A stretch of 64,000 nt of DNA from Niastella populi (GTDB lineage Bacteria > Bacteroidota > Bacteroidia > Chitinophagales > Chitinophagaceae): positions 186,001 through 250,000 of the forward strand of contig NZ_LWBP01000002.1 of assembly GCF_002078015.1 (NCBI RefSeq), read 5' to 3'. The first letter of the stretch is position 1, and the number at the start of each line of letters is the position of its first letter. A model generated the notes under the pieces. The model saw only the letters and a list, made by a program, of their open reading frames with translations. It was not told where the DNA came from and searched no databases. A program made the translations under genes and the position numbers. This document shows positions 26,108-44,956 of the stretch, piece by piece.

Positions 26108-26211
26108 AAACGCTATAAATAAGGCCCGCTAAGGCGTTACAAAGGAATTGAAAAATTACCAAAAGTATAATAAAGAAACTCTGTGCGGCAGCCTGGTTAA
26201 CAACCAGGTAA

Positions 26212-26531
26212 CAAAAGGCTGAAAGCTGAAGGCTGAAGGCTCAAGGCAGGAGACTCAAGGCGGAAAGCTAACAGCGAAACGCGGAAAGCGACTTGAGATT
26301 TATTACCTGCTGCCTGTTTGGAAGCATTGATAAGGAAGGCATGCAGCACCTGCGGCCATAAGCGTTGCGCGTTTTGCGTTCGGCTTTCAGCTTTCGGCTG
26401 TATTTGTATTTGCGTTAAGCGTTCGGCGTTCAGCTGTATTTGTATTTGCTTTGGGCTTTGGGCTGTATTTGTATTTGCGTTTGGCGTTAAGCATTCGGCG
26501 TTCAGCGTTAAGCGTTAAGCGTTCAGCTGTA
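26212..26531. repeat. Largest heptamer array (NNAARGC / GCGTTNN), inverted arms
   Basis: Left arm (26213-26290): AAAAGGC TGAAAGC TGAAGGC TGAAGGC TCAAGGC AGGAGAC TCAAGGC GGAAAGC TAACAGC GAAACGC GGAAAGC. Right arm (26361-26531): complementary words such as GCGTTCG GCTTTCA GCTTTCG and GCGTTAA GCGTTCA. Three exact copies of GCTGTATTTGTATTTGC sit in the right arm (26397, 26433, 26462). On the minus strand the array begins about 10 bp after the DUF2905 stop with GAATACAGC. Confidence 0.85.
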
Positions 26532-26539
26532 TTCACCTT

Positions 26540-26764
26540 TTACAGGAACCTGCGGATCAGGCTTATAATTACCGTTAGCAGAACGCTGAACAGGATCATA
26601 GTGGTTATGGGAATATAAAAGCGAAAGTTCTCCTTTTCGATGCGGATATCGCCCGGCAAATGACCTATCCAATGCAGTTTATCGTGAAAGAAATAGATGA
26701 TCAACCCAATAACTACCACCGCACCCCCGATGAGCATGATGTATTTGCCGGTATCGGAATTCAT
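26540..26764 (-). CDS. DUF2905 family membrane protein
   Basis: 74 residues from ATG 26764 (MNSDTGKYIMLIGGAV); the frame continues upstream but without family similarity. Two transmembrane helices (about 8-25 and 50-69) surround the conserved loop KLHWIGHLPGDIRIEKENFRFYIP, the DUF2905 hallmark. The function is unknown; short two-helix inner-membrane proteins of this family occur widely. It is divergent from the alpha/beta hydrolase, with 78 bp between starts, and its stop is followed by the large heptamer array. Confidence 0.85.
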   Translation of the reverse strand: MNSDTGKYIMLIGGAVVVIGLIIYFFHDKLHWIGHLPGDIRIEKENFRFYIPITTMILFSVLLTVIISLIRRFL

Positions 26765-37778: not shown

Positions 37779-38471
37779 TTAACCGGCAAAGCAGTAGGAA
37801 CAGCCTTTTTCCTGCGCCCGGCCCAATGCCCATACGCCCGATGGAACAACCTGTATATTGGGCAATACGCCGGCCACCCATTCTTTCTTAACTGTTTCAG
37901 CATCCATTTTCATCATATCGGCAGCCACTGCACTATACACAGTCATAGCCATGTCGCATACACAGAACATAACGCCGGTATCCTGCAATTGATTGATAGC
38001 AATGGGCACAGCGCCAACACCAGGTATTTTATAATCTTCTTTTGGCTTCCAGAATGGATTTTGCGTTGCCCATTCCTTTGTTACAGGATCATGGGCTTTG
38101 AACAATTCACCCATTTTGTATTTAGCCCACAGATCGCTTTGCAGGGCATATGGAATGGCATCGTGCCTGAGCACAACCACCACACTGCAATCTTTTTCAG
38201 GTGTTCCGGTGGCGGCATTTGTTAACAAAAAAACCTTTGGCCAGGCAAATGGCATCAATTCGTGCGGTTGTGTAGCATCGAAGACAATGCGGTGTTTTCC
38301 TTTTATCTTATTGAACCATGCTTCCACATCGCCAAATTCATGATCGGCAAAAGCCTGGTTTGCCTGCGCCTCAAAAGGAGCAAGAGAAGCTGTACCAAGC
38401 GCTGCTGCACCAGCGGCAATTTTTCCCAAAAAGTTACGGCGTGATTCGGCGTTTAAATTGTTGGTTTGCAT
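37779..38471 (-). CDS. Tat-exported DsrE-like protein with four C-terminal cysteines
   Basis: 230 residues. Twin-arginine signal SRRNFLGKIAAGAAALGTASL (about 10-30; the RRNFL motif is clear). The C-terminal half follows the DsrE pattern seen in the 36179-36592 protein: a Cys at the carrier position (FCVCDMAM, Cys170/172), then EWVAGVLPNIQVVPSGVWALGRAQEKG and a closing CSYC (Cys224/227). Tat export implies folding, and perhaps cofactor or metal loading, before transport. Role inferred from context: periplasmic sulfane-sulfur handling with the TsdA-like cytochrome downstream. Annotation pipelines would probably call it hypothetical. Confidence 0.75.
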   Translation of the reverse strand: MQTNNLNAESRRNFLGKIAAGAAALGTASLAPFEAQANQAFADHEFGDVEAWFNKIKGKHRIVFDATQPHELMPFAWPKVFLLTNAATGTPEKDCSVVVVLRHDAIPYALQSDLWAKYKMGELFKAHDPVTKEWATQNPFWKPKEDYKIPGVGAVPIAINQLQDTGVMFCVCDMAMTVYSAVAADMMKMDAETVKKEWVAGVLPNIQVVPSGVWALGRAQEKGCSYCFAG

Positions 38472-38910
38472 ATACTGCCAGGTTTTAGTTTATAGAAAAG
38501 AGAATGAAGAATCATATAATTGAACCTGCACTTTCTTACACTACGTGTTCATTGAACCCAAACAGGTATGGGCCGGTTAACATACCGGCATGGGGCTGGA
38601 TAAACTCATTCATGGAGTAGGTACAATACTTCGTTACATTCCTGATGATGCTGCTAATAAGAATCCCCGGGTATAAATCAATTCCCCTGTGGTTATTCAG
38701 TCAATTGGTGAGGGTTGGGTGCTACCGGAACTGCTTACATAATAGAAAGGAAAAGGTTCTGCATACAATATCGTTTTTAAAGGAAGGAATATCCGTTCTG
38801 TAGATATGAAATACGCGGCTACATTAAATCCATATTAAAGATAGTTATATTACGTATTAGCAGCCAAATTTATTAAAAGAAGGGTTGTCCCATTAAATTA
38901 TCTGTTATTG
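38472..38910. other. Upstream region of the Tat-DsrE gene
   Basis: About 440 bp without a gene. An inverted repeat GCCGGT/ACCGGC with 6-bp spacer (38572-38589) lies about 100 bp before the Tat-DsrE ATG and could be a regulator site or hairpin. The rest is AT-rich and unremarkable until the 21-bp array begins. Confidence 0.45.
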
Positions 38911-39095
38911 TAATTGAATTTTCCGGCTTTGTAATTCAATTGAACGGCTTTGTAATTGAATTAGCCGGACTTCTAATTCAATTGAACCGGTGATTCAATT
39001 GAACCGTGTGGTAATTCAATTCAACTGTGCGGTAATTGAATTAAACAAACGGGTAATTCAATTGAATTGTGTGGAAATTGAAGTGGACGGGCTTC
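38911..39095. repeat. Nine-unit degenerate 21-bp tandem array (3 x 7 bp)
   Basis: Units start at 38911, 38932, 38953, 38974, 38991, 39012, 39033, 39054 and 39075. Eight units are exactly 21 bp; the fourth is 17 bp. Each begins TAATTCA or TAATTGA, continues ATTGAAC or a variant, and ends with a variable G/C-rich heptamer. The AATTCAATTGAA core is self-complementary, so neighbouring units could pair. It ends 10 bp before the stop of the downstream half-YeeE gene. Confidence 0.85.
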
Positions 39096-39104
39096 GAAAA
39101 AACG

Positions 39105-39629
39105 CTAATGCGGCAGTTTTTCACGCAGGCGGCCATATACCCAGGTGCCCACAATAGCACTTAACAAGGTGACTATGATAACGGTAGCGCCGGTCCCTAT
39201 CAATGCGTACAAAGGACCCGGGCAGGCGCCCGTTAAAGCCCAACCGGCGCCAAATAACAATCCGCCATAGATCTGGCCCTTATTGAATTGTTTGGAATGC
39301 AACTCAATGGGTTCGCCATATATTGTATTCACTTTGAATTTTTTAATGAGCCAAACCGAAATGATACCAGTTACAACAGCGGTTCCTATAACCCCGTACA
39401 TATGAAAACTCTGCAGCCTGAACATTTCCTGTATCCGGAACCAGGAAACCACTTCCGATTTAATTAACAGAATTCCAAAGAGCAAACCGGCCACCAGGTA
39501 TTTTATTGAATGCCACCACGGATGCCTGATCTGCGACTCATTTATGCAAATGGTATCCAGTGAGCGTACTTCAAAATCGGTATTGGCTTCTTTTATGATC
39601 GTTGGTTGTTTTTTTTCTCTCGCTTCCAT
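39105..39629 (-). CDS. YeeE/YedE-type half permease (DUF6691, PmpB-like)
   Basis: 174 residues with about 4 hydrophobic segments after a soluble N-terminal stretch of ~38 residues. The signature GLLFGAGWALTGACPGPLYALIGTG (about 121-145) is one of the two Cys-containing pore motifs of YeeE/YedE thiosulfate-type permeases. Its partner, the other half, lies 10 bp upstream. Paired half-size proteins of this kind (PmpA/PmpB) move sulfur-containing ions across the inner membrane. Probable import of thiosulfate or sulfane sulfur for the adjoining rhodanese enzyme. Confidence 0.88.
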   Translation of the reverse strand: MEAREKKQPTIIKEANTDFEVRSLDTICINESQIRHPWWHSIKYLVAGLLFGILLIKSEVVSWFRIQEMFRLQSFHMYGVIGTAVVTGIISVWLIKKFKVNTIYGEPIELHSKQFNKGQIYGGLLFGAGWALTGACPGPLYALIGTGATVIIVTLLSAIVGTWVYGRLREKLPH

Positions 39630-44910: not shown

Positions 44911-44956
44911 ATTATCACATTATCTCATTATCACATTATCACATTATCACATTGGT
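44911..44956. repeat. Octamer array ATTATCAC, supplying the tsaC-like stop
   Basis: ATTATCAC ATTATCTC ATTATCAC ATTATCAC ATTATCAC ATTGG: five nearly perfect 8-bp units. On the minus strand the final codons of the Sua5/YrdC gene (AAT GTG ATA ATG TGA) are read from this array. The same word occurs at 36151-36186. Only one arm is seen here. Confidence 0.85.

Follow-up and report, generated by a model that had tools for sequence, protein, structure and literature searches.

A nine-unit 21-bp tandem array between yeeE and dsrE of Niastella populi belongs to a class of repeats with constant unit size and variable sequence

The spacer between a half-YeeE gene and a DsrE-like gene of Niastella populi contains a genuine tandem array of nine 21-bp units, far above chance, at positions 38911–39095 of the analyzed DNA (a 64,000-nucleotide stretch of contig NZ_LWBP01000002.1, positions 186,001–250,000, assembly GCF_002078015.1; hereafter the window). 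The array is not assigned to a strand; its unit is read on the plus strand. It belongs to a class of bacterial tandem repeats with a constant unit size of 20–21 nt and a variable sequence, as each of the tested features of that class was found in it. Niastella harbors a dispersed class of such intergenic arrays, whose period is fixed at 21 bp (or 20–20.5 bp) while the sequence varies; they contain dyads and tend to lie at boundaries of transcription units.

Structure and setting of the array

The units start at positions 38910, 38931, 38952, 38973, 38990, 39011, 39032, 39053 and 39074, and the resulting spacings are 21, 21, 21, 17, 21, 21, 21 and 21 bp. Within the array the self-match was 0.63 at lag 21 and 0.61 at lag 42, compared to 0.27 in dinucleotide shuffles, and the lag-21 value (z = 10) was reached by none of 2,000 shuffles. 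The unit map and the lag-21 signal bear out the initial annotation, which had counted eight units of 21 bp and one of 17 bp. A probable decayed tenth unit, CATTAAATTATCTGTTATTG, was found by pattern matching at 38889–38909 (no strand assigned); it has two mismatches and continues the 21-bp phase of the nine. The self-match was only 0.16 at lag 7 and likewise at lag 14, which is below the shuffles (0.27; z about −3). The description of the unit as three heptads could therefore not be upheld, and an origin of the array from heptads was rejected on the same lag-7 depletion (0.16 vs. 0.27 expected). Nor does the array follow the 7-bp rule of other arrays in the window, as had been proposed: those at 26212, 26419 and 61151 show a lag-7 signal (0.48–0.61) and this one does not. 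Because of their 7-bp period, the arrays at 26.2–26.5 kb and 61.2 kb were assigned to another class. The region 26179–26565 holds two heptad arrays with true 7-bp periodicity, one of the AAGGCTG type and one of the GCGTTAA type, and an octamer array, ATTATCAC, is located at 44911–44953; 8-bp arrays are the second commonest intergenic class in the sampled genomes.

The plus-strand consensus of the unit is GTAATTSAATTGAACnGTnyg. It consists of a near-palindromic, conserved core, AATTNAATT, and a looser spacer (GAACnGTnyg in N. populi). A core AATTGAATT and its neighbor AATTCAATT are perfectly complementary when one is read in reverse, in agreement with the self-complementarity across units reported initially, and their center base mostly alternates between G and C. 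The units are contiguous and their spacers recur, so that the array lacks the unique spacers of a CRISPR, as had also been noted; the neighbors are sulfur and housekeeping genes without cas, and a CRISPR was rejected.

The array ends 10 bp from the stop codon of the half-YeeE gene (Sulf_transp / DUF6691; 39105–39629, minus strand), as had been noted initially. Orthologues of this gene in nine other genomes of the genus are 86–90% identical, and a second half-YeeE copy in N. populi is 72% identical (L064, G000:C184:106941-107420). On the other side of the array lies a promoter-like sequence, TTTG-N21-TATCTTTA (38836–38868, minus strand), which resembles the Bacteroidota consensus. This sequence lies upstream of the Tat-signal DsrE-like gene (37779–38471, minus strand), which has no Pfam match; both the promoter-like sequence and this neighbor were present in all ten genomes compared. 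The array thus sits between the yeeE stop codon and the promoter-like sequence of dsrE. The long dsrE leader (38472–38868), which extends for about 370 nt beyond the promoter-like sequence, contains the blocks CTGAATAACCA, TACTCCATGAA and CTGTATATGCAAAC, which are conserved in nearly all ten genomes and have no Rfam match; it is a possible regulatory leader. Nothing was seen that links the array to sulfur metabolism; the same units occur behind unrelated genes.

The unit, the site and the period across the genus

Units of the GTAATTSAATTGAACnGTnyg type form five further intergenic arrays in N. populi, behind unrelated genes (C187 at 65.5, 265.5 and 387 kb; C198 at 294 kb; C145 at 142 kb), and units with the AATTNAATT core are also arrayed in N. 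vici and N. caeni. When units from six N. populi, two N. caeni and three N. vici loci were aligned, 65 of the 74 unit pairs were spaced by exactly 21 bp. The A/T columns matched the consensus in 95% of cases in the core and in 66% outside it, the core value being somewhat inflated because units were chosen partly by their core. Overall the units are diverged, with 5.6 mismatches per unit, and the spacer of N. caeni and N. vici is ACGGyCTG as opposed to GAACnGTnyg in N. populi, the core being common to all three species. Across eight arrays, including one from N. vici and one from N. caeni, the center base alternated in 23 cases and was equal in 7 (p = 0.003); alternation was missing in other arrays of the family (L270, nearly all G; L271, all C). 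The spacers of alternating arrays showed no 42-bp signal, and simple dimer duplication therefore does not explain the alternation, which could have been inherited from one alternating founder. Two other proposals were rejected: a family-wide spread of the AATTSAATT form, as exact double units were found in only 8 of 296 genomes, and growth by hairpin copying, as the spacers all have one orientation.

The yeeE–dsrE site was compared in ten genomes, including that of N. populi, which lies among Niastella and Longitalea species. All ten have kept the gene order. Eight have no array, and the promoter-like sequence follows directly after the yeeE stop codon. Only two species have an array between stop codon and promoter-like sequence: N. 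populi and Niastella sp. OAS944, which a tree of four genes placed closest to it (92% support). The OAS944 array is about 400 bp long, has periods of 21, 42 and 63 bp, and contains no unit similar to those of N. populi. Conservation of the 21-bp phase among relatives that keep the gene order, which the initial annotation had set as its refuting condition, thus gave a mixed result: the phase recurs in OAS944, in other letters, and not in the eight arrayless genomes. Both inserts have a short right-hand edge, CCTTCTTTTWAWA, in common, which weakly suggests that they go back to a single original insertion.

The mscS and nth sites gave a similar picture, with 21- or 41/42-bp arrays of unrelated letters in both N. 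populi and OAS944 and no arrays in either Longitalea species. Arrays of 21 or 42 bp also follow nth in N. caeni, N. vici, N. koreensis and a Niastella MAG, and arrays of other periods were seen at some other nth sites of the genus. The genome scan also returned further genera of the Chitinophagaceae, and in these no 21-bp array was found after nth. The N. populi array after the nth stop codon (L198, G000:C2, at about 87.6 kb) has a 41-bp period and strong inverted repeats, CTGTCAGCGC...GCGCTAACAG, and at least six Niastella species carry arrays at this place, mostly of unrelated letters. A long 21-bp array of OAS944 (L052:3112-3555) is traversed by an open frame of 147 codons that would encode seven-residue repeats; this probably reflects chance openness, the period being divisible by three.

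An unbiased census of intergenic arrays was made on samples, not complete genomes, totaling 2.34 Mb (336 kb noncoding) from five Niastella and Longitalea genomes. It yielded 98 loci with a period of 7 bp, 45 with 8, 11 with 11 and 36 with 21, in addition to multiples of these periods and a 20/41 variant; other periods were almost absent. The 36 loci at lag 21, 17 of which are not heptad-based, compare to 0–4 at each of the lags 17–20 and 22–27. After removal of the heptad cases, 17 loci remained at 21, and 26 partly overlapping entries when 20, 41 and 42 were included. The non-heptad unit sequences vary between loci (TTTTCATGAAAA, TTTCNCATGNGAAA, GCAACGGA, CTGTCAGCGC and others), and several unrelated ones occur within N. 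populi as well as within OAS944. For 14 arrays the surrounding spacer is flanked by a stop codon on one side or both, and nine of them lay within 60 bp of it, compared to 4.7 under uniform placement (P = 0.003; array limits were judged by eye). The same preference could result if purifying selection removed arrays from promoters. A near-perfect 43-bp array of about nine copies, each made of heptads plus one base, was also observed (G000:C187:336538-336960).

A DNA-level role and its alternatives

The inverted-repeat content of the arrays was assessed by folding, with controls in which the unit columns were permuted so that period and composition were kept. The predicted folding energy was below these controls in about 20 of 26 arrays, and for the array at 38911–39095 the z-scores on the two strands were −3.5 and −5.3. 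The complementarity runs over the whole array. Adjacent pairs were not favored over distant ones in most arrays, and neither RNA strand was consistently the more stable. This pattern is more in keeping with sites of dyad symmetry in the DNA than with RNA hairpins shaped by evolution, although it proves neither. Intrinsic curvature, predicted with wedge parameters, was rejected as a shared property, as this array ranked at the 30th percentile; strong curvature was predicted for the N. koreensis mscS array and for an N. caeni array (109 kb of the sample).

Our preferred reading, a tentative one that we call possible rather than probable, is that the array works at the DNA level via helically phased protein binding. 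Near-palindromic, AT-rich cores recurring every two helical turns would all lie on one face of the duplex, which would allow cooperative binding along the array by a protein of the nucleoid type, dimeric or of loose specificity. The bound array would mark the boundary of two transcription units and separate yeeE from the dsrE promoter. If the spacing carried the function, the letters could drift or be replaced while the period persisted. Arrays would originate through local duplication, later duplications in steps of 21 bp or its multiples would preserve their register, and they would now and then be copied elsewhere in the genome. That 21 bp corresponds to two helical turns and would allow phased binding had been pointed out in the initial annotation; this suggestion and the 21-bp phase itself were judged right. 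The DNA-level role is suggested by the quantized period (36 loci against 0–4 at neighboring lags), by the exact spacing of 65 of 74 unit pairs together with the 95% vs. 66% conservation of the core, and by the inverted-repeat content, in which about 20 of 26 arrays surpass the controls that keep the period. It is further suggested by the array-wide complementarity that favors neither RNA strand, by the three array sites that the sister species share with different letters, and by the position between stop codon and promoter-like sequence, with nine of 14 arrays near stop codons. Counted against it were the ordinary predicted curvature and the several unrelated families per genome, which could not be accounted for by one protein with sequence specificity. 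Placement behind a stop codon, moreover, may simply mark the sole harmless place for an insertion.

The close rival is a non-functional minisatellite, in which duplication slippage of about two turns makes and homogenizes the arrays. Founders would occasionally be copied to other places, and only arrays at harmless sites, such as between a stop codon and the next promoter, would persist; the common period would then reflect the duplication mechanism or common descent. We regard this as a serious possibility, short of probable. The lack of an array at the yeeE–dsrE site in eight of ten genomes counts for it and against a DNA-level role, and it is also favored by array growth in 42- and 63-bp steps, by the free turnover of letters between sister species and by the shared spacers of the N. 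populi family units, as expected of recent copying. The divergence of the units and the difference between the sister species are compatible with neutral drift and homogenization within arrays. The neutral explanation accounts almost as well as the DNA-level role for absence and letter turnover, but less well for the unequal conservation of core and remaining A/T columns (95% vs. 66%) and for the dyad excess over period-preserving controls, both of which are unexpected from slippage alone. Nor are we aware of a slippage mechanism that would favor exactly 21 bp and skip 17–20 and 22–27.

The same complementarity might instead act in RNA, as an array of hairpins at the 3' end of the yeeE mRNA in which adjacent units pair (stems of 9–10 bp, loops of about 12 nt), ending transcription or protecting the mRNA. 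The mostly alternating center base, by which neighbors pair perfectly, and the lack of a 42-bp signal in the spacers speak for such hairpins, as does the predicted energy of the yeeE-sense strand (−49 kcal/mol, z = −5.3 vs. column permutations). However, that strand is the less stable one here, no strand is favored across arrays, L270 and L271 do not alternate, most arrays have no excess of adjacent over distant pairing, and no known structured RNA family was matched in Rfam within the window, which together make this alternative unlikely. Hairpins kept by compensatory change from one unit to the next were rejected, given the missing adjacent-pair excess in most arrays and an alternation largely limited to those of N. 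populi. Translation of the array as a decaying or active seven-residue repeat (VIELNGF-VIQLNGF, 21 bp being seven codons) was likewise considered, as the xI[EQ]LNxx frame continues without a stop through several units, both in this array and in those of further species such as N. koreensis. The 17-bp unit shifts this frame, the center base is T, which creates a TAA stop, no less often than it is A, the variability is not at third codon positions, and neither a gene start nor a homologue was seen; a coding role is thus largely refuted and very improbable.

Relation to known repeats and significance

Bacterial tandem repeats with a constant size of 20–21 or 52 nt and a variable, species-specific sequence were described by Subirana and Messeguer, 2021 (PMC8161180). 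These repeats are mostly non-coding, are found in many bacterial groups, unrelated ones among them, can form several families of unrelated sequence within one genome, and have a short signal conserved in all units; two helical turns were noted by the authors and a protein polymerizing on DNA was proposed. The array at 38911–39095 has the constant length (21 bp, nine units, as compared with at least four units of 20–21 nt) and the short conserved signal in its AATTNAATT core, and it lies between two genes with a broken frame, stop codons and no third-position bias. Several families of the same length and unrelated, species-specific sequence occur in N. populi and OAS944. In contrast to the described class, the Niastella units are highly diverged. 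The detailed cases of that study are from Bacillus, and Bacteroidetes, Chitinophaga and Niastella are unmentioned, while the authors' first survey may already list Bacteroidota. New here are the Niastella case, the finding that sister species have arrays of different letters at one and the same site, the preference for positions just behind stop codons, the promoter boundary, the inverted-repeat excess over a period-preserving control and the high divergence of the units.

REP/BIME elements are located at gene ends, consist of palindromic units whose orientation alternates, and are associated with a RAYT transposase that they flank. The array resembles them in being extragenic, palindromic and close to 3' ends, with alternating complementary units; it differs in its shorter cores, its strict 21-bp tandem register, its direct spacers and a unit that varies between loci. 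Mobility driven by RAYT was rejected, as neither of the two Y1_Tnp matches in the N. populi genome is flanked by 21-bp arrays or core motifs. Plasmid or chromosomal iterons would have an initiator (Rep) gene and DnaA boxes beside the repeats; an informal look at the neighboring ORFs revealed no replication gene. Heptanucleotide intergenic repeats include the STRR of cyanobacteria. Others are the TAACTGA type of Beggiatoaceae and some Bacteroidetes (PMC4679880) and G-rich heptads (PMC4692102). Like the array, heptad repeats are intergenic, tandem and abundant in the same genomes (98 lag-7 loci), whereas the array has no 7-bp periodicity.

The arrays might represent elements coded by length and not by letters, in which dyad sites two helical turns apart are kept at fixed slots between transcription units, the sequence is exchanged entirely between sister species, and some protein or process senses the spacing; we consider this wider idea doubtful. 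For annotators, the array is a warning that sequence-based repeat families miss a class defined by its period. The Niastella array bears on the function of bacterial tandem repeats of fixed size and free sequence, and the genus offers a natural comparison, since the same gene order occurs with no array, with this array and with an unrelated array of the same period. The species to be compared are named and mostly isolated, and the roles of spacing, letters and position can thus be separated by experiment.
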